Source: Owenweeksia sp.
Lineage (GTDB): Bacteria > Bacteroidota > Bacteroidia > Flavobacteriales > Schleiferiaceae
Assembly: GCA_002695025.1 (NCBI GenBank)
Contig: NZNV01000028.1
Span: 1-64,000, forward strand
Direction of reading: 5' to 3'
Length of the DNA: 64,000 nt
A program made the translations under genes and the position numbers. Within the stretch, counting starts at the first letter, position 1; each line of letters begins with the position of its first letter. Under the pieces are notes generated by a model. It ran no database searches. It was not told where the DNA came from and saw only the letters and a program-made list of their open reading frames with translations. Of this stretch, positions 2,686-40,863 are shown one piece after another.

Positions 2686-2707
2686 TTGATTGGTTTTCTC
2701 AGGTTCA

Positions 2708-3391
2708 TTAATGATCGTGCGATTCTTCTGTTTCCAGGTATTTTCCTTTTGGGCCCACTCCTTCAATGTGTACCAATTGAGAGCCGTAGTGTCCGGCCTG
2801 ACTTACAGAATAAGCGGCCCCGGCCAGCACCAGGCTTACCACTATTACGGCCCAACGATTCTGCTTTAAGACAAACTGACTGATTAGTTGCAGGACAAAA
2901 GCCGTGATGCTCAACCAAATAGTCCAGTCGGCATATAAGTCATGTTGGTCAAGGACAGCTTGCATTTGCTCAGTAAGGTCATGGGCATGTGGATGAAACC
3001 ACCTACCTGCTGCATAAGCACCCAGGGCACCCAATCCGGTAAAAATGGTGATTATCCAATCCAGGTCTCTTTTGAGAATGAGAATGTTGGCTATGGATAT
3101 AAGTGCCGCCAGCAATAGCAACACAATCGGAAAGTGGACGAGGAGAGGATGCAGGTTGGGAAACTCGTCAAAATCTGCTTTCACCGATTGATTACCCCTG
3201 GTTTCGTTATCAAAATCCGCTACCCCATGATCATCAATTTCCTGAACCTGCTCCAGTTGTTCGGTACTGTCCTTTTTATTGTGATCTTCATCCCCGTGGG
3301 CATAGATACTGGGTACATTGAGCAATAAAAGGCAACTCAAGAGCAGTCCCAATTGTACATTTGATATTTTTAGTTTCATCATCATCATCAT
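2708..3391 (-). CDS. DUF2231-type membrane protein
   Basis: A 227-residue inner-membrane protein of the DUF2231 family, function unknown. It has a signal-like hydrophobic start ending in AHGDEDH, an acidic and His-containing linker (31-75), then LHPLLVHFPI (80-89), the hallmark of DUF2231, followed by about four membrane helices. His residues at 81, 86, 133, 135 and 137 could bind heme or metal; that is inference. The gene begins with five consecutive ATG codons, so the exact start is ambiguous within 12 bases. It sits 22 bases upstream of the multicopper oxidase, which suggests a shared transcript and a copper-related or redox role. Confidence 0.85.
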   Translation of the reverse strand: MMMMMKLKISNVQLGLLLSCLLLLNVPSIYAHGDEDHNKKDSTEQLEQVQEIDDHGVADFDNETRGNQSVKADFDEFPNLHPLLVHFPIVLLLLAALISIANILILKRDLDWIITIFTGLGALGAYAAGRWFHPHAHDLTEQMQAVLDQHDLYADWTIWLSITAFVLQLISQFVLKQNRWAVIVVSLVLAGAAYSVSQAGHYGSQLVHIEGVGPKGKYLETEESHDH

Positions 3392-3402
3392 CTGGTTGTT
3401 TT

Positions 3403-3455
3403 AATAATTCATTAAAAAAAGCTGCCATATCCCTTCATAAAACCGGGCTAATGGA
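3403..3455 (-). pseudogene. Possible decayed copy of the 3' end of the gene at 5204-5860
   Basis: The stretch starting at 3403 (aataattcattaaaaaa, then gctgccat) matches 5206-5232 almost base for base, apart from a small indel in the A-run. Weaker similarity continues for about 25 bases. At 5204-5860 this sequence encodes the C-terminus ending FLMNY. Here the same tail is present but shifted out of frame and has no gene in front of it. The rest of the 151-base gap (3392-3542) shows nothing I recognise. It may be a remnant of a tandem duplication; chance similarity in AT-rich sequence is the alternative. Confidence 0.35.
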
Positions 3456-5203: not shown

Positions 5204-5860
5204 TCAATAATTCATTAAAAAATAGCTGCCATCTTTCTCCATAAATACCTGGCTGATCAATCTCCGTTTTTTATCCAGCTTTTCGGTTACCTGATAGGTG
5301 ATGGTTTTTACATTCACCCCCCACATATAGGCTTTCACCGTTAACCGCGATGTAAGCGTAAAGCCGCTGCCTGTTGTCGAAACTTTACGATCATTAATAG
5401 CTATGATGCTTTTAGAACCGAAAAAGCTCAGGATGCCGGATTCAATGGACATTTCCAGGCTCAGGTTTTCCAGTTTTCGGTCATCTGCATCAAAGTCATA
5501 AAGCCTTTTAAACCCAGGAGAGGAGGCTTCTATCACGTACTCCGCATTTCCCTGCCGGGCGAATGGGAACACAGCGAGTAGTACGTCTGACTTGCCCGGT
5601 TCACAGGTGTATTGGGTAAGGTATTTATCTTTGAGATTGCCTTCCTCATCAAAAAGGTTTACCTGCAGTTGAACACTCAATTGGTTTCCGGTGGTTTGGA
5701 GTTCTCCAACCCTAAAAACTTGTTTGGCGGTTAGCTCCTTATCGGTATTGAAGGCCTTTCGTACCACTTCCTTACCGGCTATTTGCTCAATGAGCATATC
5801 TTGTCCATTAGCCGGAATACAATTAATAAGAGCCAATATGACGATCAAATTCTTATACAT
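5204..5860 (-). CDS. Secreted protein of unknown function
   Basis: I do not recognise this 218-residue protein. It has a signal peptide (residues 1-19, ending ANGQ). The body is rich in alternating polar and hydrophobic residues (SVQLQVNLF, FTLTSRLTVKAY), suggesting beta-strands, so a periplasmic or surface beta-sandwich is likely. Its start overlaps the stop of the upstream PRPP synthase gene by 8 bases, so the two are probably translated together. A short out-of-frame copy of its 3' end is seen near 3403-3455. Confidence 0.75.
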   Translation of the reverse strand: MYKNLIVILALINCIPANGQDMLIEQIAGKEVVRKAFNTDKELTAKQVFRVGELQTTGNQLSVQLQVNLFDEEGNLKDKYLTQYTCEPGKSDVLLAVFPFARQGNAEYVIEASSPGFKRLYDFDADDRKLENLSLEMSIESGILSFFGSKSIIAINDRKVSTTGSGFTLTSRLTVKAYMWGVNVKTITYQVTEKLDKKRRLISQVFMEKDGSYFLMNY

Positions 5861-6743
5861 GGTTCATGGTTGCTAATACCCTTGCAGCCAATATGCTGCT
5901 TAAATCAATCTTATTGCTTTCGTGCGGAATAGTGTTGCAGGTAACTACTTCGGCACCTGCATTTATTAAATCCTGGTAGGCACTGCCCGCAAATACAGCG
6001 TGTACGCCAATGCAAACGGGAGCCTTCATCCCGGCATTTTTTAAATGACCTACAGTTTCAATCATGGTTCGGGCTGTAGAAATAATATCATCAACAAGCA
6101 CGGGTGTATGTTCTTTAAATTCTTCCACCTGCGGCACCGAAACTTCCACATCGCGGTCGCCATGGCGGGTTTTTTCCAGTACCATAAACGGTGCTCCCGC
6201 TGCTGTAGCCACTTCCGATACCCATTGCTCGCTTTCACTGTCGGGGCCTACCAATACCGGGTTTTCAACATTTTCTTTAACCCATCTGGAAATGGCATTG
6301 GCTGCATGAACCACTTTTGAAGGAATATTGTACACCTCACTAAGTGAACTCCTGCGGTGCAGATGCGGGTCAACCGTGATAAGGCTGTCAGCAAAGCCGG
6401 AAATGAGCTTTCCAAAATAATCTGATGTAACGCCTTCACCGGGTTTGAAGACCTTATCTTGCCGCATATAGGCCAGGTAGGGTGCCACCAGGCAGGTGCA
6501 TTTGGCCCCAAGACTTTTAGCGGTTTGGGAGAGAAAGTACAATGGAAGTAGTTTTTCATCGGGCTGGTGCAGGGTAGCCACCAGCACTACGCATTTATCC
6601 CTTACATCGGATAGGATGCGTACATAGGTTTCTCCATCAGGAAATTGACGTATGGTAACTTCAGCAATTTTAGCTTTAAGATGAGTACTTAATTTTTCGG
6701 TTAATATTTCATTCCCGGGCAGGGCAACAAGTATTGATTTCAT
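5853..6743 (-). CDS. prs: Ribose-phosphate pyrophosphokinase (short form)
   Basis: Makes PRPP from ribose 5-phosphate and ATP, or runs in reverse when PRPP is supplied by nucleotide breakdown. Signatures: FPDGETYVRI (34-43), PYLAYMRQDK (88-97, normally YARQDR), DPHLH (125-129) and the PRPP-binding loop VLVDDIISTARTM (215-227). At 296 residues it is shorter than housekeeping Prs (about 310-320), and the usual PRPP loop reads STAGT; here Gly is replaced by Arg. It resembles the divergent short forms of archaea and some bacteria. It overlaps the upstream methyltransferase by 4 bases and lies in a cluster with a nucleoside-monophosphate phosphorylase, suggesting pentose-phosphate salvage rather than general biosynthesis. 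Confidence 0.88.
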   Translation of the reverse strand: MKSILVALPGNEILTEKLSTHLKAKIAEVTIRQFPDGETYVRILSDVRDKCVVLVATLHQPDEKLLPLYFLSQTAKSLGAKCTCLVAPYLAYMRQDKVFKPGEGVTSDYFGKLISGFADSLITVDPHLHRRSSLSEVYNIPSKVVHAANAISRWVKENVENPVLVGPDSESEQWVSEVATAAGAPFMVLEKTRHGDRDVEVSVPQVEEFKEHTPVLVDDIISTARTMIETVGHLKNAGMKAPVCIGVHAVFAGSAYQDLINAGAEVVTCNTIPHESNKIDLSSILAARVLATMNHV

Positions 6744-7363
6744 ATGGACTGATTTTTATTTGAAATTCTTTTAAAATGGCAAAACAGAAAGTTTTGGTTT
6801 GTACCAAATGGTGTGAGGTGATCTTTGGTAGTGCATTTTATTTTTCCCCACTTTTCATGCAGCAGTTTTGTCAGAGCCTCCTCTGAATAGCGCTGAACAG
6901 GGAGGCCACTGCACTTTTCGGGGCCATTTTCAGAAAAAGTACCCAATACCAGGTGCCTGGCGCCACTTTGATCGAGAATACTCAGATATTGCTGAATTTC
7001 CTGATCGGAAACCAGGAAATGAAAGGTGGCGCGGTCATGCCACAGGTCATAAGCCGAGGGTTCAAGCTGTAATATATCTGTGGCAATGAAATTCACCTTC
7101 TCCGCCATTTTGCCCAGCCTCTTTTTGGTCTTTTGAATGGCTGCCTCCGATATGTCCAGTACAGTGAGGTTCGTGTAACCCTCTTTAAGGAGAAAGTCTA
7201 TCAACTTGCTTTCACCTCCTCCTACATCAATAATGGCTGCTGATTTGGGCAAATCACTTTTCCGGATCCATTCCAAAGAAACTTCGGGAATTTGCTCCGT
7301 CCAGCTAAACTGGTCCGGGTCCTTTTCCTGATATATTTTATTCCAATGTTTTTGTCGTTCCAT
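6740..7363 (-). CDS. Class I SAM-dependent methyltransferase
   Basis: A 207-residue cytoplasmic methyltransferase. The SAM-binding motif I is IIDVGGGESKL (44-54), followed by TVLDISE (motif II) and an ATDILQL segment (motif III). The acceptor is unknown. The WNKIYQEKDPDQFSW start is typical of small methyltransferases found near metal and metalloid resistance genes, so a role in detoxification is possible but unproven. The stop overlaps the PRPP synthase start (ATGA), indicating translational coupling. The GDCCVxC protein lies 13 bases upstream. Confidence 0.88.
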   Translation of the reverse strand: MERQKHWNKIYQEKDPDQFSWTEQIPEVSLEWIRKSDLPKSAAIIDVGGGESKLIDFLLKEGYTNLTVLDISEAAIQKTKKRLGKMAEKVNFIATDILQLEPSAYDLWHDRATFHFLVSDQEIQQYLSILDQSGARHLVLGTFSENGPEKCSGLPVQRYSEEALTKLLHEKWGKIKCTTKDHLTPFGTNQNFLFCHFKRISNKNQSI

Positions 7364-7376
7364 TTTTCAACTATTA

Positions 7377-7601
7377 TTAAAAATCCTGGCTGAGCTGGAT
7401 GGATGGACATGGCACGGAGCCATAGCTGCAGTAAACACAGCAATCTCCTTTCCGGGGCTTCAGTAATTCACCGCAATTGGTGCATTCATAAAAATACTGG
7501 CAGGCATCCTCGGGCATCCTTTCTTCCTTAACAAAGCCGCAGACCGGGCAGGTGATCACAGAATAGATTTGAATGGCGCGGTTATTATTTCCTTTGTTCA
7601 T
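7377..7601 (-). CDS. GDCCVxC-motif small Cys-rich protein
   Basis: A 74-residue cytosolic protein with three Cys pairs: CPVCG (18-22), CTNCGELL and the family hallmark GDCCVYC. GDCCVxC proteins are often encoded near mercury or other heavy-metal resistance genes and probably bind a thiophilic metal or form a zinc ribbon. It overlaps the upstream phosphorylase by 4 bases (ATGA). The function is unknown, but the family call is firm. Confidence 0.85.
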   Translation of the reverse strand: MNKGNNNRAIQIYSVITCPVCGFVKEERMPEDACQYFYECTNCGELLKPRKGDCCVYCSYGSVPCPSIQLSQDF

Positions 7602-9118
7602 GTTATATCAATTATGCTGCTTTCATTTTGCCGGTAGTACTCCAGTGCGTAATCGAGTTCACCTTGCGACTCGGCATGGATTTCATACAGCGTTTGTCCA
7701 CTTTCTACTTTGGTTCCTGTTGGCGTCAAAAAATCTACCCCGGCTGATTTATCGTCCGGTGCTCCGGCCAGCTTGGCTATTTTGGCCAGCTTGCGGTTGT
7801 CAATGGCCGCTACCGTTCCTGCCCTCTCCGCTTGTACAGGATGTTGAAACCGTGCCTGCATGGGTTCGCGAAACCCTCCCTGGGCCTCGCAGATTGCTAT
7901 GAACTTCTTTAATGCTTTCCCGGAATTGAGAAGAGTTTCAGCTTTGCTATGGCTATTACCGGGGTCAGCCTTTCCGGAAAGCTCCAGCAGTTCGGCTGCC
8001 AATCGCAAGGAGCGCTCCCGCAGGTCTGTCGGGGCAGTACCTTCATTGTTTAATACTGCCAGCACATCTCTTGCTTCCAGTGCCGGGCCAATGCCACGGC
8101 CCACTGGCTGGCTGCCATCGGTGATTACAATTTTCAATTTCAGACCAACGGCTTCGGCCACCATCGTCATTCTTTGCGAAAGCTCTTCTGCATCATCAGA
8201 CGTGCGTACTTTCGCGGTCGGTCCCACCGGGATGTCGATCACTACGTGGGTACTGCCCGCAGCCGCCTTTTTGGAAAGGACTGAAGCTATCATTTGCCCT
8301 TCACTGTCAATATCAAGAGCCTTTTCCACCCGTATCAATATATCATCAGCAGGGCTCAGTTGCATGGATCCGCCCCAGGCCAGGCAGCCGTTTTCTTGTT
8401 TCACTACTCTCTTCATCTCTTCCAACGACAGGTTTACATTGGTGAAAACTTCCATCGTATCAGCCGTACCGGCCGGGGAAGTAATGGCCCGGGAGGAGGT
8501 TTTGGGAACCGTAAGCCCGGCAGCGGCAGCAATGGCTACCACTATGGGGGTGGTGCGGTTTCCCGGAAGACCACCAATGCAATGTTTATCGAAAACCCGG
8601 GCTGCAGGCCAGTGCAATTTTTGTCCGGCATCCACCATGGCCTTAGTCAGGTGGATGATTTCATCAATATCCAGCCGTCTTCCCGCGCAGGCGGTAACAA
8701 AAGCAGCTATTTCCACATTGGAGTAATTGCCTGCAGCCAGATCGCTAACTATATCCTGTATTTGCGACTCCTTCAGACGGTGGCCATATACTTTGCCCCG
8801 TACGGCACTCATGGAGTTAATGGGCGGAAGGTGCGAAAACGCAAGTAAATCCCCCGCCTCCACCTTCAGGGAGGTTATTGCTTTTTGCGAAAGGCTTGCT
8901 TCCTCATGGCCCAGCAAGGCTTCGTTGTCCAACACATTTAGCGAAGCCACTATGCTGCGGTCACCGTGGCTGACCATTATCCGCGTGAGTGCTTCAAATC
9001 CTTCGGAAACACATACCGGGCAGTCCCTGCGCATATACACGGTGTGCTCGTTGCGGGTATCGATGCCAAGAGGTTTGAGGATTAGCTCATTGTGTTTATG
9101 TGATTTTTTATTATTCAT
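7598..9118 (-). CDS. AMP/thymidine phosphorylase family protein
   Basis: A 506-residue nucleoside phosphorylase of the long archaeal-like branch, which includes AMP phosphorylase (AMP + phosphate to adenine + ribose 1,5-bisphosphate). An N-terminal extension of about 85-90 residues precedes the common alpha/beta domain, as in archaeal AMPpase and unlike the 440-residue bacterial DeoA. Conserved segments: DKHCIGGLPGNRTT (177-190) and PKTSSRAITSPAGTAD (205-220). Its neighbours are a PRPP synthase and a methyltransferase, the same pairing seen in nucleotide-to-pentose salvage. Nucleotide versus nucleoside preference cannot be decided by eye. No RuBisCO or ribose-1,5-bisphosphate isomerase is in this window. 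Confidence 0.88.
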   Translation of the reverse strand: MNNKKSHKHNELILKPLGIDTRNEHTVYMRRDCPVCVSEGFEALTRIMVSHGDRSIVASLNVLDNEALLGHEEASLSQKAITSLKVEAGDLLAFSHLPPINSMSAVRGKVYGHRLKESQIQDIVSDLAAGNYSNVEIAAFVTACAGRRLDIDEIIHLTKAMVDAGQKLHWPAARVFDKHCIGGLPGNRTTPIVVAIAAAAGLTVPKTSSRAITSPAGTADTMEVFTNVNLSLEEMKRVVKQENGCLAWGGSMQLSPADDILIRVEKALDIDSEGQMIASVLSKKAAAGSTHVVIDIPVGPTAKVRTSDDAEELSQRMTMVAEAVGLKLKIVITDGSQPVGRGIGPALEARDVLAVLNNEGTAPTDLRERSLRLAAELLELSGKADPGNSHSKAETLLNSGKALKKFIAICEAQGGFREPMQARFQHPVQAERAGTVAAIDNRKLAKIAKLAGAPDDKSAGVDFLTPTGTKVESGQTLYEIHAESQGELDYALEYYRQNESSIIDIT

Positions 9119-24517: not shown

Positions 24518-26926
24518 TTAGTGGTTTTTTAATTTACTTTCTGCTTTTGAAATATTCTCGATGCCTCTTATTAAAGCATCCGGATTGAACGAGATACTGT
24601 CAATTCCACACTCTACCAAAAATTTGGCGTACTCTGGGTAGTCACTTGGTGCCTGGCCACATAAGCCGATCTTAACACCATTTTTCCTTGCCTTCGTAAT
24701 AGACATTTCAATGAGGTCCATCACGGCAGGGTCAAATGGGCTGAAGATTTCACTCAGCAACTCCGAATCACGGTCTGCTCCCAGAGTGAGTTGGGTCAGG
24801 TCATTGGAACCGATGGAAAAACCGTCAAAATGTTTTGCAAAGTCATCTGCCCGCACTGCGTTGCTTGGGATTTCCACCATCATGTACAGCTCCAATTTGT
24901 TCGCGCCTCTTTTCAAGCCGTTACGCTCCATGAGTTTGACCACCTTCTGAGCTTCATCCACCGTGCGGCAGAATGGTATCATCAGCTTCACGTTGGCAAA
25001 GCCCATGTCTTCGCGCACCATTTTCATGGCTTTACATTCCATCTCAAACCCTTCTTCATAGAGCGGATGATAATAACGGGAAGCCCCCCGGAAACCGATC
25101 ATGGGATTTTCTTCATGCGGTTCAAATAATTTCCCACCGATGAGGTTGGCGTATTCATTGGATTTGAAATCGCTCATCCTCACAATCACGTCTTTGGGAT
25201 GGAAAGCCGCAGCGATAATAGCGGTAGCCTCTGCCAGCTTATGGATGAAATAATCCTGTTTATTAGGATAATGGAGCGTCAGCTCTTCTATCTGCTGCCG
25301 GGTCTTCAAATCGGTTACCTTTTCATAATGACGCAAGGCCATCGGGTGGATACGGATCACGTTGCTGATAATAAATTCCATCCGCATAAGTCCGACACCA
25401 TTGTTGGGAAGCGCTGAGTATTTAAATGCTTGGTCCGGATGCCCGAGTATCAGCTTGACATCCGTCTTTGGCATTTTAATATTGCTGATGTCAATCTCCT
25501 TTTCTTCCCATTCTGCCTTGCCATCGTAAACAAAGCCTGTGTCTCCTTCAGCCGTTGAGACGGTTATGATCTGGCCGTCTTTTATCACCCGCGTAGCATC
25601 CCCCGTGCCTACAATAGCGGTAGCGCCCACTTCCCGTGCAACGATAGCTGCATGGGATGTCCTGCCGCCCTGATCGGTAATAATCGCGGCAGCTTTTTTC
25701 AAAATAGGATCCCAATCGGGGTCGGTCCTTCTTGTGACCAGAATTTCACCCTGCTTCAGCTTGTCGCTCTCGGCTGGAGTCTTGAGCAGCCTCACCTTTC
25801 CTGAAACGATGCTGTTCCCAAGTCCGATTCCCCGGCAGATCAGCTTTCCTTTCTCTTTGATTTTGTATTCTTTGAATGACGCCTTTTTGCTCTTTTGACT
25901 ATGCACCGTTTCAGGTCTTGCCTGCACTATAAACAACTCCCCGTTGATACCGTCTTTCGCCCATTCAATATCCATGTGGCGGTCATAATGCTGCTGAATG
26001 ACAGTCGCCCATTGTGCTAACTTGATCACCTCCTTATCATCCAAAATAAATTTTTGCTGCTGGCTCACGGATGTGTTCATGTTGATGATGGCGTCTTCGG
26101 GCTTCACGATTTCATTCACTGTCCTTTCCGAATAGATCATCGTTTGGGCTTTGCTGCCCAGCTTCCGTGAAATAATAGGTTGCTTCACTTTTCCGATAAA
26201 GGGCTTGAATACCAAAAATTCATCGGTGTTTACATTTCCCTGCACCACATTTTCGCCCAAGCCCCAGGCCCCTGCGACCAGTGCCACTTGCTCAAAGCCC
26301 GTATCGGGGTCAAGCGAGAACATCACGCCTGAGCAGGCTTTATCCGAACGCACCATCAATTGCACACCTACCGAGAGGGCAACTTTTGTATGGTCAAAGC
26401 CATTATCATTGCGGTATTTAATAGCTCTGTCCGTAAACAGAGAAGCGTAGCAACGAAGACATGCTTTCAGCAAATTTTCAATACCCCTGACGTTCAGATA
26501 GGTTTCCTGCTGACCCGCAAAGCTGGCATTGGGAAGGTCTTCGGCAGTAGCACTGCTGCGCGTGGCAAACGAAACCTCATTGCCGTACTTCTTTGTTAAA
26601 TACTTGTGTCCTTCTGCGATCTTTTCTTGAAGCGCATCTGGGAGGGCGCCCGTCATAATCAGCTCACGGCAGGCTTTCCCTACATCACCAAGGTTTGAAA
26701 ATTCAATGGTATCCAGTTTGGAGAGAATTTGTTTCAGCTTCTTCCGGAAATCATTATGATCCAGGAACGCCCAGTAAGCGTCAGCCGTCAGCGCGAAGCC
26801 GTCCGGCACGGAAATACCTTTGCTGGAAAGGTTGCTGAACATTTCTCCTAATGAAGCATTTTTCCCACCTACCTGCGGGAGGTCATTGATTCCGATTTCC
26901 TTGAAGTATTTGATGTATGTTTTCAT
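24518..26926 (-). CDS. ppsA: Phosphoenolpyruvate synthase
   Basis: An 802-residue three-domain enzyme: pyruvate + ATP to PEP + AMP + phosphate. N-terminal ATP-grasp (VGGKNASLGEMF near residue 20; RSSATAEDLPNASFAGQQ), the phosphohistidine domain GGRTSHAAIVAREVG, and a C-terminal PEP-binding barrel with LCGQAPSDYPEYA. Length fits PpsA. The gene precedes the FAD oxidoreductase by 60 bases and follows the PFOR gene by 36. With PFOR, PFK and type II GAPDH it closes a glycolysis/gluconeogenesis set. Confidence 0.95.
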   Translation of the reverse strand: MKTYIKYFKEIGINDLPQVGGKNASLGEMFSNLSSKGISVPDGFALTADAYWAFLDHNDFRKKLKQILSKLDTIEFSNLGDVGKACRELIMTGALPDALQEKIAEGHKYLTKKYGNEVSFATRSSATAEDLPNASFAGQQETYLNVRGIENLLKACLRCYASLFTDRAIKYRNDNGFDHTKVALSVGVQLMVRSDKACSGVMFSLDPDTGFEQVALVAGAWGLGENVVQGNVNTDEFLVFKPFIGKVKQPIISRKLGSKAQTMIYSERTVNEIVKPEDAIINMNTSVSQQQKFILDDKEVIKLAQWATVIQQHYDRHMDIEWAKDGINGELFIVQARPETVHSQKSKKASFKEYKIKEKGKLICRGIGLGNSIVSGKVRLLKTPAESDKLKQGEILVTRRTDPDWDPILKKAAAIITDQGGRTSHAAIVAREVGATAIVGTGDATRVIKDGQIITVSTAEGDTGFVYDGKAEWEEKEIDISNIKMPKTDVKLILGHPDQAFKYSALPNNGVGLMRMEFIISNVIRIHPMALRHYEKVTDLKTRQQIEELTLHYPNKQDYFIHKLAEATAIIAAAFHPKDVIVRMSDFKSNEYANLIGGKLFEPHEENPMIGFRGASRYYHPLYEEGFEMECKAMKMVREDMGFANVKLMIPFCRTVDEAQKVVKLMERNGLKRGANKLELYMMVEIPSNAVRADDFAKHFDGFSIGSNDLTQLTLGADRDSELLSEIFSPFDPAVMDLIEMSITKARKNGVKIGLCGQAPSDYPEYAKFLVECGIDSISFNPDALIRGIENISKAESKLKNH

Positions 26927-26962: not shown

Positions 26963-29900
26963 TTATACCACAGGGTTAAATTCCTTAGCCCCCCATCCGG
27001 CCATATCCTCGTAAGTTTTCCAGCGCAGATCCACCATTTCCTGGGCGGCTTTCATAAGGCGTTCGGCTTCTTCGGGATTGGTACGGGCCAAAATACTGTA
27101 GCGCAATTCGTTATAGGCATAGTCCTTTAATTTGATTGTAGGCCTGGGCGAATCAAGCACAAACGGATTCTTGCCCGCCTCCCGTAAAGTTGGGTTGTAA
27201 CGGATCAGGGGCCAATGCCCGCAATCCACGGCCAGTTTTTGCTGGGTCATTCCTTTCTGCATGTCAATGCCGTGGGCTATGCACTGGCTGTATGCCAGCA
27301 CGACCGAAGGCCCCGGATAGGCTTCTGCCTCCCGCAAAGCCAACAGTGTTTGTTGCGCGTTAGCCCCCATAGCTACCTGTGCCACATAGACATTGCCATA
27401 AGAAATAGCTTGCAAGGCAAGGTCTTTCTTGCCTACTTTCTTTCCTGCAGCGGCAAATTTTGCAGTAGCAGCCGTGGGAGTGGCTTTGGACATTTGCCCT
27501 CCCGTGTTTGAATAAACCTCGGTATCTAAGACCAGCACGTTGACATTTCTTCCCGTGGAAAGGACATGATCCAGCCCCCCGGAGCCTATGTCATAGGCCC
27601 AGCCGTCACCGCCCACCAGCCACACGCTTCTTCTCACCAGGTGATCTGCCACCGAGAGTAGTTTTTCAGCTTCAGGCCGTTTGATTTGAGCCAACTTCTC
27701 CTTCAGTTCAGCCACTGCTTCTCTTTGAGTGCTGATCTCAGATTCATATAGCTGGGCATTGTTCAGCAGTTTTTCCGTCAATTGCTCCCCTATTACAGGA
27801 CTTAATCGTTGTATTAAACCTCTTGCCATAGCAAGGTGATTATCCGCTGTTACTCTCATGCCCAAACCGAATTCCGCGTTGTCCTCAAACAATGAATTGG
27901 ACCATGCCGGCCCTCGTCCTTGTTGATTGACCGCCCAGGGTGTTGTGGGCAGGTTGCCTCCATAGATGGAAGAGCAGCCGGTAGCGTTGGCCACGATGAG
28001 GCGGTCACCGAACAACTGGGTTAGCACTTTGATATATGGCGTTTCCCCGCAACCGGCACAGGCCCCCGAAAATTCAAATAAGGGTTCAAGGAATTGGGTG
28101 CCCCGCACGGAGGAGAAATCTACTTTGGCTCGGTCATTCATGGGCAGGCTTTCAAAGAAGCGAATGTTCTCCCTTTCAGTATCAAGCACCGGTTCCCTTG
28201 GTTTCAGGTTGATTGCTTTGGCACTTTCATCATCAGGATCGGTAACCGGGCACACTTCCACGCAGAGGTTGCACCCCGTACAATCTTCCACAGACACTTG
28301 TAAGGTATAGCGCGTTTCGGGAAATCCGCGTGCATTGATGGGAGCGGAAGGAAATTCCTCAGGCGCCTGTTTCAGATGTTCCCTATTGTAGAATTTGGAA
28401 CGGATAACACTGTGAGGGCACACGAAACTACAGTTGCCGCATTGAATACAAATATCTTTATCCCATTGGGCCACCATATCGGATAGATTGCGCTTTTCCC
28501 AACGGGTGGTCGCACTCGGATAAGTACCATCAACAGGCAGTTGGCCAACAGTAAGTTCATCGCCATCGCCACGCATCATCATGGCGGTAACTTGCTGCAC
28601 AAATTCAGGTGCTTCTGTAGGTACCGTGGGGGGGAGTGGACGATTGCCCGAAGCTTTAGCCGGTACTTTTACTTCAAACAAATTTTCCAAGGCAGCATCT
28701 ACCACGCGGAAATTCTGTTCGATGACGGCTTTCCCTTTTTTGGAGTAGGTTTTTTTAATGGATTTCTTAATTCTATCAATAGCCTCGTCCTTCGGTAGCA
28801 CGCCTGAAAGTGCAAAAAAGCAAGCCTGCATAACCGTGTTAATTTTCTCTCCAAGCCCTTCAGCCTGCGCCACGCCCGAACCGTCAATGACATAAAATTT
28901 TAATTCCTTTTCAATGATCTGTTCCTGAACGGGTCGTGGCAGGCGATCCCAAACTTCATCAACACCATAAGGGCTATTCAACAAAAAGGTGCTCCCTTGT
29001 TCTGCAAATCGAAGCATTTGTACTTTTTCTATGAAGTTGAATTTATGGCAGGCAATAAAGCCTGCCTCCCGGATAAGATAAGGGGCGTAAATTGGCTGCG
29101 GACCAAAACGCAAATGCGAAACCGTCTGCGCACCGGATTTTTTGGAGTCGTACACAAAATAGCCCTGGGCATATAAGTCCGTACCCTCGCCAATGATCTT
29201 AATACTGTTTTTATTGGCGCCTACCGTTCCGTCAGACCCCAGCCCAAAGAATATGGCGCTGACGGTGCCTGCAGGAATAATATCAAATTCAGGATCATAA
29301 TCAATACTTATATGTGAGACATCATCCCTGATACCTACCGTAAAACCATTTTTTGGGACAGGCTTTTTAAGTTCCTCAAAAACACCTTTGGCCATAGCAG
29401 GGGTGAATTCTTTGGAAGATAGCCCGTACCGCCCACCTACAATATGTGGAAACTCGCTGATTTCCCCTAGGCGGTAAGCCTCTGCCAAAACCGTAACCAC
29501 ATCCTGATAAAGAGGTTCCCCGGCAGCACCAGGTTCTTTTGTTCGGTCCAGTACCGCTATTTTTTTTACAGATTTCGGAATTACAGCCACGAAATGTTTC
29601 AATGAGAAGGGACGGTAGAGCCGGACCTGTATTACTCCTACTTTCTCTCCGCTTGCAGTCAATTTTTTCACCGTTTCACGTACCACTTCCGCCCCGGAAG
29701 CCATGATGACGATTACTCTTTCGGCATCCGTATCGCCATAATACTCAAAGAGGCGATAGTTCCGTAAGGTGAGGTTGCCAAAATCATCCATTGATTCCTG
29801 AACAATTTGCGGTGTAGCGGAATAAAATGGGTTAACCGTTTCCCTGGCTTGAAAATATACGTCAGGATTTTGGGCGGTTCCCCGAATAAAAGGATTATCT

Positions 29901-30541
29901 GGATTCAGGCTGCGCTTCCGGTGCGCATATATAAGTTGGTCATCGACCATGGCTTTGATCTGCCCTTCTGTCAGAAGACTGATCTTATTCACTTCATGCG
30001 AAGTACGGAACCCATCGAAAAAATGCATAAAGGGCAGCCTCGATTTCAATGTGGCTGCCTGGCAGATAAGCGCCATATCGTGTGCTTCCTGCACGGAAGC
30101 CGAAGCGATCATTGCAAAGCCGGTTGTCCTAGCTGCCATCACATCGCTGTGGTCGCCAAAAATGGACAATGCCTGTGTAGCAAGTGATCGTGCCGCCACA
30201 TGAAAGACCGTTGCCGTGAGCTCCCCTGCGATTTTGTACATATTGGGCACCATGAGCATCAGTCCCTGCGAGGCGGTGAACGTGGTGGCCAACGCCCCTG
30301 TTTGCAACGCTCCATGAATGGTACCGGCTGCGCCTCCCTCGCTTTGCATCTCGATCACATCGGGTATGTTGCCCCAAATATTTTTCACCCCTGCGGCAGC
30401 CCATTCATCAGCATGCTCGGCCATAGGCGATGCCGGTGTGATGGGATAGATCCCACATACTTCATTAACCCGGTAAGCGACATAAGCTACGGCTTCATTG
30501 CCGTCAATGGTCACCATTTTTGTTCGATCCGTTATGGTCAT
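26963..30541 (-). CDS. nifJ: Pyruvate:ferredoxin (flavodoxin) oxidoreductase
   Basis: A 1192-residue single-chain PFOR: pyruvate + CoA + oxidised ferredoxin to acetyl-CoA + CO2 + reduced ferredoxin, oxygen-sensitive. Domains in order: pyruvate-binding (YPITPASPMAEH near 33), gamma domain, two [4Fe-4S] ferredoxin motifs (CIQCGNCSFVCP; CTGCNLCVEVCP), the proximal cluster and thiamine diphosphate domain (CAGCGETPY; GDGWAYDIGSGG). All cluster cysteines I can check are there. Start overlaps the GltD-like gene by 4 bases (ATGA), a strong sign the two proteins work together. Confidence 0.96.
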   Translation of the reverse strand: MTITDRTKMVTIDGNEAVAYVAYRVNEVCGIYPITPASPMAEHADEWAAAGVKNIWGNIPDVIEMQSEGGAAGTIHGALQTGALATTFTASQGLMLMVPNMYKIAGELTATVFHVAARSLATQALSIFGDHSDVMAARTTGFAMIASASVQEAHDMALICQAATLKSRLPFMHFFDGFRTSHEVNKISLLTEGQIKAMVDDQLIYAHRKRSLNPDNPFIRGTAQNPDVYFQARETVNPFYSATPQIVQESMDDFGNLTLRNYRLFEYYGDTDAERVIVIMASGAEVVRETVKKLTASGEKVGVIQVRLYRPFSLKHFVAVIPKSVKKIAVLDRTKEPGAAGEPLYQDVVTVLAEAYRLGEISEFPHIVGGRYGLSSKEFTPAMAKGVFEELKKPVPKNGFTVGIRDDVSHISIDYDPEFDIIPAGTVSAIFFGLGSDGTVGANKNSIKIIGEGTDLYAQGYFVYDSKKSGAQTVSHLRFGPQPIYAPYLIREAGFIACHKFNFIEKVQMLRFAEQGSTFLLNSPYGVDEVWDRLPRPVQEQIIEKELKFYVIDGSGVAQAEGLGEKINTVMQACFFALSGVLPKDEAIDRIKKSIKKTYSKKGKAVIEQNFRVVDAALENLFEVKVPAKASGNRPLPPTVPTEAPEFVQQVTAMMMRGDGDELTVGQLPVDGTYPSATTRWEKRNLSDMVAQWDKDICIQCGNCSFVCPHSVIRSKFYNREHLKQAPEEFPSAPINARGFPETRYTLQVSVEDCTGCNLCVEVCPVTDPDDESAKAINLKPREPVLDTERENIRFFESLPMNDRAKVDFSSVRGTQFLEPLFEFSGACAGCGETPYIKVLTQLFGDRLIVANATGCSSIYGGNLPTTPWAVNQQGRGPAWSNSLFEDNAEFGLGMRVTADNHLAMARGLIQRLSPVIGEQLTEKLLNNAQLYESEISTQREAVAELKEKLAQIKRPEAEKLLSVADHLVRRSVWLVGGDGWAYDIGSGGLDHVLSTGRNVNVLVLDTEVYSNTGGQMSKATPTAATAKFAAAGKKVGKKDLALQAISYGNVYVAQVAMGANAQQTLLALREAEAYPGPSVVLAYSQCIAHGIDMQKGMTQQKLAVDCGHWPLIRYNPTLREAGKNPFVLDSPRPTIKLKDYAYNELRYSILARTNPEEAERLMKAAQEMVDLRWKTYEDMAGWGAKEFNPVV

Positions 30542-32184
30542 AGTCCTAAGTTTTTAGGTTCGGGAATCATTTCTATGGCATGGCAGGGGCATTGCTCATA
30601 ACATATCGCGCAGCCGGTGCACTTATCAAAGTCATACTCATATCTATTGCCGGGCCCCAGTTTTATAATGGCATCTTCCGGGCAGGCTCCATAGCAACCG
30701 TCACATTCAAAGCAATTGCCGCAGGAAAGGCAGCGTTGCGATTCAAAAAGCGCTTCTTGTTCACTTAGGCCCGCCTTTATTTCATCAAATCCTGCCATGC
30801 GTTTTTCAGCAGAAAGTTCTGCCTGTTCCTTTTGAGGAGCATCTGTTTTATACCAAAGGTGCAATCGTGTATGGCCCACGACCGGGTGTTTAGGAGGTTT
30901 TTGGTATGGGGCACTCCGTAAAAACCCGTCTATATAACGTGCCGCTTTTTTACCGTGCCCTATGGCTACGGTTACGCTGCGCTCGCTGGGCACCATATCG
31001 CCACCGGCAAAGATGCCTTTATGGCCAGTCATCATATCGTGCCCTACCAGGACTGTTCCATCCTTTTTGAACTCAATGCCCGGAACATTTTTCAAAAATC
31101 CCGTATCAGTATCCTGCCCCACTGCCAATATCAGTGTGTCTGCCTCAAGGGTTTCAAATTGCCCAGTGGGTACGGGCAGCCCTTTTTCCAGCCGCATCAC
31201 CTCTACGGTGAACGTTTCTTCGTCCATCGCTTTTATAGTGCGCAGCCAGTTGATTTTCACTCCTTCTTCTAGGGCCTCTTCGGCTTCAAACTCATGGGCC
31301 GCCATATGTTTTTGGTCCCGCCTGTAGATGATGGTCGCCTCAGTTGCCCCCATCCGTTTTGCCGTTCGTGCGGCATCCATGGCCGTATTGCCCCCGCCAT
31401 AAATGGCCACCCTTCTACCTATTTTTGGCTTTTCGCCATCTTCCACCTGTTTTAAAAAGGCGATAGCATCCAAAAATTTTCCCGCATCCATGCCAGGGAT
31501 ATCAATTCTTTTTGAAAGATGGGCGCCCACGGCAATGAACACAGCATCGAAATTACCGGCCTTTTTTTCTTCTAGGACATTTTCAACTTTATGGTCCAGT
31601 ACAATCTTTACCCCCATGGCCAAAATACGCTCCACCTCATGATCGAGCATGTTTCGCGGAAGCCGGTAGGCGGGAATCCCAAAGTGCATCATGCCGCCTG
31701 CCACTGGTCCTGCTTCATGGATTTCAACCGTATGCCCCAACCTGGTGAGATGGTATGCTGCAGACAATCCGCTTGGCCCGGCCCCGACTATCAATATCCG
31801 TTTACCCACAGGTTGTTTTTCATAAAGCACCTTCCAGTTTTCAGAGATAGCCATATCCCCCAAAAAGCGCTCTAAAGCATGTATGCTAACGGGACTATCA
31901 ATAAATGTACGGTTACAGCCTGCCTCACAAGGGTGATAGCATGCACGCCCCATCACAGCTGGCATAGGATTATCCTGCATGATAACCTGCCATGCTTCTT
32001 CATATCTCTCGGCTTGGGCCAGTGCCAGCCATGCCTGTATATTTTCCCCAGCCGGGCAAGCATTATTGCATGGTGGAAGCAGATCAACGTAAACTGGGCG
32101 CTGCTGTCTATCGGGCCCGGTACCTTCACCATGGCTTTTGAGGTCGGGAGGGGAGGTTATATCGTTTTTCTGTCGTTTTTTCAT
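30538..32184 (-). CDS. GltD-like FAD/NAD(P)-binding oxidoreductase with ferredoxin domains
   Basis: A 548-residue iron-sulfur flavoprotein resembling the small subunit of glutamate synthase and NfnB. N-terminal cluster region (CNNACPAGENIQAWL, CYHPCEAGCN), FAD motif ILIVGAGPSGLSAAYHL (around 129-145), NAD(P) motif VAIYGGGNTAMDAA, and a C-terminal ferredoxin with two Cys sets (CGNCFECDGCYGACP; CTGCAICYEQCP). No glutamate synthase large subunit is in the window. It overlaps nifJ, so it probably moves electrons between ferredoxin and NAD(P)H for the pyruvate oxidoreductase. Confidence 0.9.
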   Translation of the reverse strand: MKKRQKNDITSPPDLKSHGEGTGPDRQQRPVYVDLLPPCNNACPAGENIQAWLALAQAERYEEAWQVIMQDNPMPAVMGRACYHPCEAGCNRTFIDSPVSIHALERFLGDMAISENWKVLYEKQPVGKRILIVGAGPSGLSAAYHLTRLGHTVEIHEAGPVAGGMMHFGIPAYRLPRNMLDHEVERILAMGVKIVLDHKVENVLEEKKAGNFDAVFIAVGAHLSKRIDIPGMDAGKFLDAIAFLKQVEDGEKPKIGRRVAIYGGGNTAMDAARTAKRMGATEATIIYRRDQKHMAAHEFEAEEALEEGVKINWLRTIKAMDEETFTVEVMRLEKGLPVPTGQFETLEADTLILAVGQDTDTGFLKNVPGIEFKKDGTVLVGHDMMTGHKGIFAGGDMVPSERSVTVAIGHGKKAARYIDGFLRSAPYQKPPKHPVVGHTRLHLWYKTDAPQKEQAELSAEKRMAGFDEIKAGLSEQEALFESQRCLSCGNCFECDGCYGACPEDAIIKLGPGNRYEYDFDKCTGCAICYEQCPCHAIEMIPEPKNLGL

Positions 32185-32199: not shown

Positions 32200-33174
32200 T
32201 CAATTATTAAACATCTTCAAAAGCCCCTGTAGCTCCTCATCTACCCGGTGTTGCTTCACCACCTGATCAAATGGGGTGAGGCTTAGCCTGTTTTGAATCA
32301 CTCCGGCCATGGCATTGCTTTCGCCCGCAAGTACGGCTTCAACTGCCGCAGCTCCCAAACGTATTCCCAACATCCGGTCGGCAGCTGAGGGGTTGCCCCC
32401 ACGCTGTACGTGCCCCAGTGTGGTTATCCGTAAATCCACCTCTGGATTCACCTCCCTGATTTTGGAAGCTACCAGATCCACCCCTAGTTCATCTCCTTCG
32501 GAGACCACTACAATCAATGCATCCTCACTGTGATAGTGGCGTACCTTATTGAGTAACCGGATAAAGTCATCTCCACTTTCGGGTATCAGAATGCCATCAG
32601 CGCCTGTACCCAAGCCCGAATGGATGGCGATGAAGCCCGAGTCGCGACCCATCACCTCTATAAGGAACACCCTGTTGTGCGATTCGGCAGTGTCCCTGAT
32701 TTTGTCAATGTTTTGAATGGCGGTATTTACAGCGGTATCAAAACCCAGAGTATAATCCGAGCCGGTAAGGTCGTTGTCAATAGTGCCGGGGATGCCAATG
32801 GCTGGCAGTTTACATATTTCAGAAAAAGCCAACAGGCCATTGAAAGTGCCATCTCCACCAATGGCAATAAGGGCATCTATCCTCTTTTCCTGTAACTTTT
32901 GCAGGGCGGTTTTCTGGCCCATCAATTTCCTAAAGCGTTCGCTGCGCGCAGTTTTCAAAACAGTACCCCCTTGATGCACCGCCCCTTGTAGTGCATTCTC
33001 ATCAAGTTCCATAAAGTCACCGTCTATCATTCCCTCAAAGCCCCTGCGGATACCGGTGATGGCGATACCATGGGTAGAGGCCGCTTTGGCCGCCCCATAA
33101 AGTGCCGCATTCATTCCCGGGCTATCACCGCCCGAAGTAAATATGCCGATATGTTTAATTGGAATAATGTTCAT
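32200..33174 (-). CDS. pfkA: ATP-dependent 6-phosphofructokinase
   Basis: A 324-residue cytosolic PFK. It has the ATP-binding GGDSPGMNA (15-23), GGDGT (106-110) and GTIDNDL (130-136). Gly at the position after GGD and the missing Lys before TIDND favour ATP rather than pyrophosphate as phosphoryl donor. It lies 15 bases upstream of the GltD-like gene and 39 downstream of the P-type ATPase. Its placement next to PFOR instead of with housekeeping glycolysis is unusual. Confidence 0.94.
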   Translation of the reverse strand: MNIIPIKHIGIFTSGGDSPGMNAALYGAAKAASTHGIAITGIRRGFEGMIDGDFMELDENALQGAVHQGGTVLKTARSERFRKLMGQKTALQKLQEKRIDALIAIGGDGTFNGLLAFSEICKLPAIGIPGTIDNDLTGSDYTLGFDTAVNTAIQNIDKIRDTAESHNRVFLIEVMGRDSGFIAIHSGLGTGADGILIPESGDDFIRLLNKVRHYHSEDALIVVVSEGDELGVDLVASKIREVNPEVDLRITTLGHVQRGGNPSAADRMLGIRLGAAAVEAVLAGESNAMAGVIQNRLSLTPFDQVVKQHRVDEELQGLLKMFNN

Positions 33175-38487: not shown

Positions 38488-39845
38488 TTTGTTGTTGCTT
38501 TAAGATTAGTATTGACTGTAAGAGCTGGTTTTTTGCCATACCAGCGGTCGAAAACTATGCAGGCGGTCAAATCTCCGGTTACGTTTACTGCGGTACGGAA
38601 CATTCCCAATAGTCTTTCCACACCAATAATGATGATGATGCCTTCGGCCGGAATACCGGCACTACTGAGCACAGATGCCAGGATGACTACCCCACCGCCC
38701 GGAATGGCGGGCGTGCCAATAGAGGCCGCCACAATGGTTATGACCACCACAATGATGTTCAGCAGGCTCATTTCCAGCCCGTAGGCCTGGGCTATAAAAA
38801 GGGTGGTAACGGTTTGATAAAGGGCGGTACCATCCATGTTCACGGTAGCGCCAATTGGAATAATAAAGTTGCTGATAGATTTATCCACCTTGAGTTCTTC
38901 CTCGGCAGTTTGCAGCGAAAGGGGCATTACTGCGGCTGAACTGGTCGTGGAAAAAGCCAGCAATTGAGCGTCCCGGATTTTCCTGAGAAAGTGAAAAGGA
39001 TTGCTCTTGCCAAGTAAGGCTACCAGGGTAAGGTAAACTCCCACCAGCAATAACAATCCGGCCAGTACCACCAAAACATAATAGCCCAGCCCAGCCAGTG
39101 AGCTGAGCCCCACGCTTGAGGTAAGCTGAGCCATAAGGCCAAAAACAGCTATAGGCACCAGTTTCATGGCCCATTTCACTACGGTCATGCAAATTTCCTG
39201 AATGGCACTGAGCAGCAACTTTACCGGGCGCAATAGGTTTTCGGGCAAGGCCAGCACCGCCACGCCAATGATAATGGTAAATATCACGATGCTCAGCATC
39301 TCGCCACTTACCATGGCCGCCAGCGGGTTTTCGGGCAGCAGGTTGGAAATGGCACCGGGTATGCTGTTGATGCCAAAGGAAAGTTCAGCACCTCCCTGGG
39401 CTGTGTCGACCAGTTCCTTAGCGTGTTCGGCAGCGGCTTGCTCGTGCAGGTAGTTGCCCGATTTGAAAAGTGTGGCCAGTATTACACCTATGGTAACAGA
39501 AATGGTGGTGGTGCCCACAAAATAAAGCAGCACACCTCCCCCCAGCTTCTTCAGGTTTTCTTTGTCGTTGCTGGCAATGCCGGTGATGATGGAAGCCACA
39601 ATCAGCGGTATCATAATCATCTGTACCAGCTTGAGAAACAGGATGCCGGGCAGGGCCAGCCAATTGCCCAATACATCTGCTGTATCCTTACTCAACCAAC
39701 CATTTTGTGGGCTTAGCAACAGGCCAAAACCCACCCCCAGAAACAGGGCAATAATCACCTTCAGCCACAGGCGGTTCTCCACCAACTTTTGCAAGTAGGT
39801 GTTCAGTGATTTCAGGCTCCTTATTTCCGAATCAAAGATGCTCAT
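38484..39845 (-). CDS. Dicarboxylate/amino acid:cation symporter (DAACS family)
   Basis: A 453-residue inner-membrane transporter of the glutamate/aspartate/C4-dicarboxylate family. Conserved substrate-site signature NMDGTALYQ and the later GTPAIPGGG (HP2-like) loop are present, with about eight helices. Substrate is glutamate, aspartate, succinate or similar; which one is unclear. It overlaps the type II GAPDH gene start region by 14 bases and the downstream lipoprotein by 4 bases. Confidence 0.9.
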   Translation of the reverse strand: MSIFDSEIRSLKSLNTYLQKLVENRLWLKVIIALFLGVGFGLLLSPQNGWLSKDTADVLGNWLALPGILFLKLVQMIMIPLIVASIITGIASNDKENLKKLGGGVLLYFVGTTTISVTIGVILATLFKSGNYLHEQAAAEHAKELVDTAQGGAELSFGINSIPGAISNLLPENPLAAMVSGEMLSIVIFTIIIGVAVLALPENLLRPVKLLLSAIQEICMTVVKWAMKLVPIAVFGLMAQLTSSVGLSSLAGLGYYVLVVLAGLLLLVGVYLTLVALLGKSNPFHFLRKIRDAQLLAFSTTSSAAVMPLSLQTAEEELKVDKSISNFIIPIGATVNMDGTALYQTVTTLFIAQAYGLEMSLLNIIVVVITIVAASIGTPAIPGGGVVILASVLSSAGIPAEGIIIIIGVERLLGMFRTAVNVTGDLTACIVFDRWYGKKPALTVNTNLKATTK

Positions 39846-40863
39846 TGGTTATGCCCAGGCTTTCATTGGTTTTGACAATAGAATTTTCGGCACTTTCTTC
39901 AATTCCGGTGAGGGCGCGGATGGCATCAATCGTCTCCGGAATTACGATGGCCTGATTGTCCACCAAGTAGGCGTAAAACAACTCATCGTCCTGCACTTTC
40001 AGCATATCCTGCCAAAGGGCCACTTCGTACATATCGCCCCAAGGGCGGCCCATATCGAGGTATTTTTCCTTTACCGTATTGTTGGAAACGAGGCCATCCG
40101 AATAATTAATGAAAGTAATGCGCGTGGATGAACGAAAGGCTTCCAGCACTTCTTCCTTGGTTGCTTTGCGGGTGAGGCGCACATTCCAGTAGTGCAGGTG
40201 GCTCAGGGTTTCGGGTACTTTTACGGCCATGGTTACTACATCCAGTTCCGGGTCCACACTTTTGGCATCCGGCCCCTGGTGGCTTGGTATATCTTGTTCA
40301 GGAACCAACGTGTTCATAATTCCGCCTAGGTGACTTTCCCAGGGATCAGTGGCTCTGCGCAACAAGGTGCCTCGTGCGCTTTGCAGCAAGCCTGCCTTTT
40401 TCAATGCCGTAAGCGTGCGCACCATAGAAGTGGTATTGCACGACACCACCCGGGTACTCTCCCGATTAAGGGCAGAAGCATAGTTGCTCTCCGCACTGAA
40501 CGAGTGGCCAGTGGTTTCATGCTTTTCACCGCCTTGCATAATGAATTTTAGCCCCAGCTTTTTGTAGGTTTCTACATTTTGGGCCGCAATCTTTTTTGGG
40601 GTACAGTCCACTGCGAGGTCAACCTGTGCAAGAAGTTCATCCATGGTTCCTTTTACGGGAATGCCGGCAGAAGTCATGTTTTGGTGGGCATCACTGTTGG
40701 CGGCAAATATCGAATACCCCTTTTCTACAGCTGTGGATATGCGCCAGTCACTAATTACATCGGCCACTCCGGTCAGTTCCATATCATCTTGTAGGGCCAC
40801 GGCATCGGCCACTCTTTTACCAATTACACCATAGCCGATTAAGGCAATCTTTTGCTTTTTCAT
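39832..40863 (-). CDS. Type II (archaeal-type) glyceraldehyde-3-phosphate dehydrogenase
   Basis: A 343-residue enzyme of the archaeal GAPDH branch, distinct from the common bacterial Gap. N-terminal Rossmann GYGVIGKRVADA (10-21), catalytic Cys142 in SCNTTSMVRTL, and a later conserved HLHYWNVRL. It interconverts glyceraldehyde 3-phosphate and 1,3-bisphosphoglycerate, usually with dual NAD/NADP use and often in the gluconeogenic direction. It lies between an ion channel (4-base overlap) and a DAACS transporter. With PFK and PEP synthase nearby it looks like part of a transferred set. Confidence 0.92.
   Translation of the reverse strand: MKKQKIALIGYGVIGKRVADAVALQDDMELTGVADVISDWRISTAVEKGYSIFAANSDAHQNMTSAGIPVKGTMDELLAQVDLAVDCTPKKIAAQNVETYKKLGLKFIMQGGEKHETTGHSFSAESNYASALNRESTRVVSCNTTSMVRTLTALKKAGLLQSARGTLLRRATDPWESHLGGIMNTLVPEQDIPSHQGPDAKSVDPELDVVTMAVKVPETLSHLHYWNVRLTRKATKEEVLEAFRSSTRITFINYSDGLVSNNTVKEKYLDMGRPWGDMYEVALWQDMLKVQDDELFYAYLVDNQAIVIPETIDAIRALTGIEESAENSIVKTNESLGITNEHL

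Follow-up and report, generated by a model that had tools for sequence, protein, structure and literature searches.

A gene pair for a GltD-like flavoprotein and a pyruvate:ferredoxin oxidoreductase in Owenweeksia sp.: a candidate two-protein pyruvate:NADP+ oxidoreductase

The DNA analysed here, referred to as the window, is a stretch of 64,000 nucleotides of Owenweeksia sp. (assembly GCA_002695025.1, contig NZNV01000028.1, positions 1 to 64,000), and on its minus strand lie, one directly behind the other, genes for a GltD-like flavoprotein and a single-chain pyruvate:ferredoxin oxidoreductase (PFOR). A preliminary description of the locus held that a 4-base ATGA overlap joins the two genes, which is borne out at bases 30538-30541 with coordinates and strand correct, and that the pair could move pyruvate electrons directly to NAD(P). 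This second proposal is supported by the conservation of the pair, the correlated tree distances of the two partners, a separate branch of linked PFORs, loci with split pyruvate oxidoreductases (PORs), a fusion to PorG and an NADP(H)-type YRR motif. We consider it likely, from these sequence comparisons, that the two proteins act directly, without free ferredoxin, as a pyruvate:NADP+ oxidoreductase in what is probably an aerobic host. The features are listed below.

30538-32184, minus strand: GltD-like FAD/NADP iron-sulfur flavoprotein of the NCBIfam NF009410/PRK12771 family (548 aa), the leading gene of the pair
26963-30541, minus strand: single-chain PFOR, 1192 aa, second gene of the pair
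30538-30541, minus strand: ATGA overlap of the GltD-like stop and the PFOR start, read directly from the sequence
31837-32076, minus strand: N-terminal GltD/NfnB-type cluster domain (Fer4_20, residues 37-116; C39, C43, C82, C86, C90, E105)
31318-31326, minus strand: codons of Y287-R288-R289, the NADP(H)-type YRR motif, aligned with YRR of NfnB chains 5jca_L and 4ylf_B
30715-30843, minus strand: segment 448-490, related to the NfnB N-terminus (its profile matches residues 11-46 of an NfnB-type protein in locus L121)
30583-30732, minus strand: C-terminal ferredoxin-like domain (C485-C534; Fer4)
28187-28486, minus strand: PFOR ferredoxin domain, the electron exit (about residues 686-785; boundaries set by us)
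32200-33174, minus strand: 6-phosphofructokinase, upstream neighbour (PF00365, 324 bits), 15 bases from the GltD-like gene
24518-26926, minus strand: phosphoenolpyruvate (PEP) synthase, downstream neighbour (TIGR01418, 1090 bits), 36 bases from the PFOR gene

The flavoprotein and its PFOR partner

The GltD-like protein scores 770.5 bits against NF009410 (curated cut-off 516) and contains the Pfam domains Pyr_redox_2, Fer4_20 and Fer4. It had been described as carrying ferredoxin-type clusters at both ends; this stands for the C-terminus (Fer4), but the N-terminus is of the GltD/NfnB/dihydropyrimidine-dehydrogenase type (Fer4_20) and has no ferredoxin fold. In an alignment of 86 GltD-like proteins, C82, C86, C90 and E105 are present in every row and C39 and C43 in 85 (one gap); at the other end the ten cysteines from 485 to 532 are found in all 86, and C534 in 76. 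A Fer4_21 match at the C-terminus stays below its cut-off (29.5 bits against 35), and the C-terminal domain matches the ferredoxin parts of solved RnfB (9eri_B, E 1.5e-8) and POR delta subunit (9bt4_G, E 2.7e-7) structures. The YRR motif is intact in 85 of the 86 rows, and R174 is kept among them and aligns by eye with the FAD-binding arginine of NfnB. We note that a PFOR-linked GltD-like protein in another genome (L152, 6288-7931) has VYFPGDK in place of YRR, possibly a natural switch away from NADP.

In NfnB two N-terminal cysteines, C39 and C42, are among the ligands of the distal cluster (PMC7596348; this and the other articles given by PMC number are cited from excerpts), and the corresponding places in the GltD-like protein are occupied by V31 and D34. 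Segment 448-490, on the C-terminal side, matches the N-termini of NfnB-type proteins in profile comparisons (34.9 bits for L121, 36 bits for L126 and L127, where the best of 2000 shuffled decoys reached 5.4), and it contains an invariant RCxxC (C485, C488). Because of this match, and because the RCxxC would restore the missing ligands, the protein appears to be an NfnB core whose first segment has moved to the C-terminal side, with C485 and C488 probably completing the distal cluster. The same arrangement is seen in three DsrL rows, although PMC7596348 assigns other residues. The solved folds nearest to the AlphaFold model of the protein are StnC, NfnC, NfnB and GltD.

The PFOR matches TIGR02176 over its full length (residues 9-1181; 1774.1 bits against a curated cut-off of 911.35) and aligns at 1352 bits with the solved PFOR chain of PDB 6cin, from Moorella. 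PFOR carries three [4Fe-4S] clusters, whose ligands are presumably the cysteines from C698 to C764 together with C828, C831, C856 and C1087; all are kept in 70 of 70 linked PFORs except C1087, which is present in 66 (4 gaps). Linked and unlinked PFORs are told apart by twelve positions (conserved to at least 90 % in the former, present in at most 10 % of the latter), and six of these (703, 712, 738, 739, 741 and 750) lie inside the 100-residue ferredoxin domain (hypergeometric p 1.8e-4); as a control, 94 other, partly nested, splits of the same tree place 79 of 645 such positions there. This pattern fits a changed docking surface on the PFOR ferredoxin domain, a predicted feature for which ancestry may be an alternative source.

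Distribution and trees of the pair

The locus set comprises the best 80 of 573 relatives found when one genome per species was scanned with six aligned GltD-like proteins as the query (five linked to PFOR and one to a split POR). A PFOR gene lies directly downstream on the same strand in 78 of these 80 loci, a few of them with frames that are broken or cut by contig ends. The pair is thus conserved, and a lack of conservation had been named in the preliminary description as one possible refutation. The records come from eight named phyla: Pseudomonadota (53), Bacteroidota (12), Actinomycetota (3), Dormiibacterota (3), Acidobacteriota (2), Armatimonadota (2), Planctomycetota (1) and Verrucomicrobiota (1), with three unplaced. 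Most are metagenome-assembled genomes and the Planctomycetota record (L078) falls among Competibacteraceae on the tree, so that the phyla represented by a single record are unsure. Of the two exceptions, one is a contig that stops at the end of the GltD-like gene (L111) and the other a close relative of that gene (65 %; L089, 5986-7620) with leuA downstream. A search of the host phylum added six further linked loci (L116-L119, L152 and L161). PFORs were found at E 1e-150 in 213 of 395 genomes of this phylum; the top seven listed, including that of the window, adjoin a GltD-like gene, the other six being 68-73 % identical to the window's PFOR, and the next 23 listed (63 % downwards), fetched with their flanks, have no GltD-like match.

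The ATGA overlap alone is ordinary operon structure, and the part that goes beyond chance is the gene order, because PFOR is directly downstream on the same strand in 78 of 80 related loci. Among 77 pairs in other genomes whose spacing could be measured with start codons picked by script (five more could not), an overlap is present in 20, and in 13 of these it is exactly 4 bases long.

For 66 pairs the tree distances of the two partners correlate (r 0.84, where none of 2000 permutations rose above 0.18), although the permutations leave shared host ancestry in place, which may contribute to this value, and both partners have the same nearest neighbour in 46 of the 66 pairs. In the PFOR tree a single branch (SH-aLRT 99) separates the 70 linked proteins whose frames were of sufficient length from 28 unlinked ones, of which 26 are solo and two stand next to NfnB-type genes; this requires one change, against a mean of 24.5 when shuffled. 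Linked PFORs of Bacteroidota group with linked PFORs of other phyla, apart from the unlinked ones. In the GltD-like tree, 85 PFOR-type proteins form one side of a branch (99); these are 84 of the 86 rows (all but L120 and one short row) plus L152, and they include L089 and L111, where no PFOR was seen. They are joined next by a single split-POR protein (by identity L120; 100), and the PFOR type with all split-POR proteins on the tree makes a group of 89 (100), apart from the three DsrL rows.

The split-POR loci place the same flavoprotein module with an enzyme in separate subunits. L120 has PorG-PorA-PorB-GltD-like, including a 4-base overlap, and L153, L155 and L156 have PorG-GltD-like-PorA-PorB, while in L157 a 755-aa chain (1165-3432; TIGR02175 at 1-179, NF009410 at 229-750) fuses PorG with the GltD-like protein, and PorA and PorB come next. 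In all five the GltD-like protein is the only one with two CxxCxxCxxxC motifs, a search that a ferredoxin with other spacing would escape, and because no other double-ferredoxin protein was found there, it appears to replace the ferredoxin (delta) subunit of POR. A 1730-aa PFOR frame in an unlinked genome (G227) was considered as a further fusion and rejected, the excess being a GC-rich N-terminal extension in which no GltD-like stretch is seen by eye.

Other genes recur behind the pair; in 62 of the 84 loci used for this comparison the PFOR is complete and more than 1 kb lies behind it. Genes resembling soluble transhydrogenase (sthA) directly follow PFOR in six Zetaproteobacteria loci (two tested, both over the NCBIfam cut-off), a seventh member of the cluster, in L094, being on the other strand and not counted. 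pntA- and pntB-like genes take this place in two Bacteroidota loci grouping with the pair of the window, and the scores obtained (368.8 and 373.2 bits for pntA, 454 bits for one of the two pntB) are all below the NCBI cut-offs of 383 and 689. The transhydrogenase-like genes of these eight loci fit NADPH as the product. A dihydroorotate-dehydrogenase-like gene directly behind PFOR in 33 of 84 loci (e.g. L040, 6848-7864, and L116, 11486-12487; two tested for family, both PRK07565 over the cut-off) was considered as a real partner and dropped: the window has PEP synthase in this position, and the unlinked PFOR of G227 also has such a gene, as judged by eye. Relatives of PEP synthase lie near the pair in three of the 84 loci, namely two Mycobacterium loci and Mangrovitalea (L100, on the other strand, L107 and L114, the last confirmed by family; a 25 % match in L075 was left out). 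A separate arrangement occurs in L121 (1-3763), from the same order as the host, where two genes stand immediately before PFOR, one NfnA-like (by eye) and one of NfnB type. The latter is above the NCBIfam cut-off for TIGR01316 (NADPH-dependent glutamate synthase), and the arrangement would be another, perhaps bifurcating, means of connecting PFOR with NADP.

Host context, proposed electron path and alternatives

The host genome (4.46 Mb in 41 contigs) has no match to GXGXG (PF01493), for which 13 of 14 control genomes are positive, the other domains of the glutamate synthase large subunit not having been searched; the preliminary description was therefore right on this point, and a GltD role in glutamate synthase is not indicated. 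There is likewise no PF10418 match (NfnA/PyrK type; six of 14 control genomes positive), as an NfnAB complex would need, and no match to [FeFe]-hydrogenase or PntB. Among seven E1_dh matches, six are above cut-off and one of those (L128) stands beside an E2-like gene, as seen by eye; three COX1 matches were found, two of them pieces at contig ends that may be one gene. Thirteen Fer4 matches include one stand-alone 2[4Fe-4S] ferredoxin of 115 aa (L138), [2Fe-2S] ferredoxins not having been searched, and the single Flavodoxin_1 match, of about 208 aa, is WrbA-like by eye. Taken together, the host seems to be aerobic, with PFOR as an addition to its metabolism. A GltD-like match at E 1e-60 was found in none of 59 other genomes of the host genus and family, nor a PFOR of this type at E 1e-200 in any of 47, and because of this absence the pair was probably gained by transfer. 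Its GC content (49.5 % for PFOR and 49.7 % for the GltD-like gene, with 46.6 % for the window and 47.6 % for 13 other loci of the genome together) was considered as a mark of foreign origin and gives no such sign.

The phosphofructokinase gene is probably co-transcribed with the pair; in a promoter scan the 14 hits did not exceed the 15.4 expected by chance. Nearly all long reading frames of the window are on the minus strand, and its content mixes sugar-phosphate genes, a D-2-hydroxyacid dehydrogenase, a UspA gene and, by eye, copper-handling-like genes. We note two further loci: an archaeal-type (type II) glyceraldehyde-3-phosphate dehydrogenase at 39832-40863 (NF003251, 453 bits against a cut-off of 185), unexpected in a bacterial genome, and, at 5853-9118, a ribose-phosphate diphosphokinase (NF005537) near a relative of archaeal-type thymidine/AMP phosphorylase (TIGR02645, 617 bits), perhaps a nucleotide-to-sugar salvage pair.

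In the proposed reaction PFOR, using thiamine diphosphate, would form acetyl-CoA and CO2 by oxidation of pyruvate with CoA, and single electrons would travel through its [4Fe-4S] clusters to its ferredoxin domain. There the C-terminal ferredoxin-like domain of the GltD-like protein would dock instead of a free ferredoxin, the electrons would pass first its C-terminal and next its N-terminal clusters on the way to FAD, and FAD would reduce NADP+ by hydride transfer. The electrons of pyruvate oxidation are near -500 mV and NADP+ is near -320 mV, so that the oxidative direction is downhill. Electron exchange without free ferredoxin, physical contact, the electron path, its direction and use at low oxygen, beside the pyruvate dehydrogenase-type and terminal oxidase genes, are inferred. 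Related enzymes give some guidance: titration of AvDsrL-1A gave cluster potentials of -330 and -390 mV, and DsrL-2, which has YRR, depends strictly on NADP(H) (PMC7596348), while CAC0764, which is NfnB-like and has no partner, is a strict ferredoxin-NADP+ reductase (PMC9365771).

Several observations weigh against this reading. The query consisted mostly of PFOR-linked proteins, and the 78 of 80 loci therefore describe this subfamily and not all GltD-like proteins; L089 has no PFOR in its 13.6 kb; and L152, outside the 86 rows, lacks YRR although it is PFOR-linked. Spacing exceeds 100 bases in 18 of the 77 measurable pairs. The ferredoxin parts of RnfB match the C-terminal domain better than the POR delta subunit does, the AlphaFold model (mean pLDDT 69.5) is weak in the cluster regions, too weak to give distances between clusters, and the retention of R174 means that this residue does not exclude bifurcation. 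All unlinked PFORs in the tree are from one phylum (Bacteroidota), and the trees are quick ones without bootstrap, for which a long-branch warning applies that includes the joining of L153 and two more split-POR proteins with the PFOR type. The stand-alone ferredoxin L138 could carry the PFOR electrons.

The last point leads to the alternative that the GltD-like protein is a general ferredoxin:NADP+ reductase to which free ferredoxin shuttles from PFOR, the genes being adjacent for dosage only. CAC0764, the nearest characterized case without a partner, does use free ferredoxin (PMC9365771), and the PFOR keeps its full ferredoxin domain. Yet the built-in ferredoxin-like domain makes a free carrier unnecessary, the split-POR loci lack another double-ferredoxin protein, L157 joins the flavoprotein to PorG, and linked PFORs differ most in just the domain through which electrons leave; on balance we find this alternative unlikely. 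A bifurcating or confurcating enzyme like NfnB is suggested by the NfnB-like fold and by conserved R174 and proximal-cluster E105, equated with NfnB residues by eye, but with no PF10418 protein in the genome, and with StnC having the arginine yet not bifurcating (PMC10482914), it seems very unlikely.

The pair might also work in reverse, NADPH driving the carboxylation of acetyl-CoA to pyruvate while PEP synthase pulls towards sugar. NADPH is a weak donor for pyruvate synthesis, a glycolytic phosphofructokinase gene lies just upstream, and PEP synthase is near the pair in only three of 84 loci, once on the other strand. Its place directly downstream in the window and its presence in the Mycobacterium and Mangrovitalea loci nevertheless point this way, as does the fact that DsrL enzymes operate in both directions (PMC7596348); we regard this as quite improbable, though it could coexist with a direct pyruvate:NADP+ oxidoreductase, and the alternatives in general are not fully exclusive of that preferred reading. 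A bolder extension of it, which we think unlikely as a whole, is a horizontally spread PFOR lineage with a remodelled exit domain that has dispensed with free ferredoxin, acting at low oxygen as a reversible pyruvate:NADP+ oxidoreductase in aerobes and microaerophiles; together with PEP synthase it would also serve pyruvate synthesis driven by NADPH and the fixation of CO2.

Comparison with known systems

PFOR in an aerobic genome is usually interpreted as ferredoxin metabolism. Should the proposed function be correct, a PFOR branch found in Bacteroidota, Mycobacterium, the iron-oxidizing Mariprofundus, methanotrophs and others (taxa from record titles) would make NADPH directly from pyruvate, metabolic models of these organisms would change, and a ferredoxin-independent pyruvate-to-NADPH enzyme would be available for engineering. 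Among the matches listed in the open-licence PMC literature we found no published study of the pair, and the only mention, in the excerpts of PMC7596348, is an exclusion. A term search of the M. abscessus DosR paper brought up no mention of this PFOR, and M. smegmatis MSMEG_4646/orB, considered as a counterpart, is taken instead, from excerpts, to be of the KorAB type. The parts and the principle are known; the combination, its spread and the apparent replacement of a ferredoxin subunit seem to be undescribed.

The coupling of PFOR to an NADP reductase has a precedent in the pyruvate:NADP+ oxidoreductase of Euglena, in which PFOR is fused in one chain to a P450-reductase-like flavoprotein part, whereas the PFOR and GltD-like proteins are two separate reading frames. 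NADH-dependent phenylglyoxylate dehydrogenase (Pad), by its NCBIfam names likewise a POR-family enzyme for 2-oxoacids that works with a nicotinamide nucleotide, has several subunits (including a flavoprotein), is NAD-linked and acts on another substrate. On the flavoprotein side, NfnB, StnC and NfnC have the closest solved folds, and NfnB shares YRR; their partners are bifurcating subunits, and the CxxC segment that NfnB has at its N-terminus is on the C-terminal side in the GltD-like protein. CAC0764 of Clostridium acetobutylicum is also GltD/NfnB-like, strictly NADP(H)-dependent and without glutamate synthase, but it is about 45 kDa, monocistronic and served by free ferredoxin (PMC9365771; set beside the GltD-like protein by description only).

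DsrL, the NAD(P)H:acceptor oxidoreductase of DsrAB, belongs to the same NCBIfam family, has the same domain order and in DsrL-2 has YRR, but its partner is sulfite reductase and not PFOR. DsrL-type proteins from the phylum search, Chlorobia as far as can be judged, are 33-36 % identical to the GltD-like protein, and in the single locus where neighbours were assigned to families (L160), dsrA and dsrB lie beside such a gene. Two DsrL rows, taken as Chlorobia, have other residues at the YRR site and the third has YRR, which fits PMC7596348 as excerpted. That study set aside relatives linked to genes for pyruvate/ketoisovalerate:ferredoxin oxidoreductases, and the window's GltD-like gene, directly linked to PFOR, falls on the side of those set aside. 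If the function proposed here is correct, one flavoprotein module would serve two unrelated machines, the sulfite reductase of DsrL and a pyruvate oxidoreductase.

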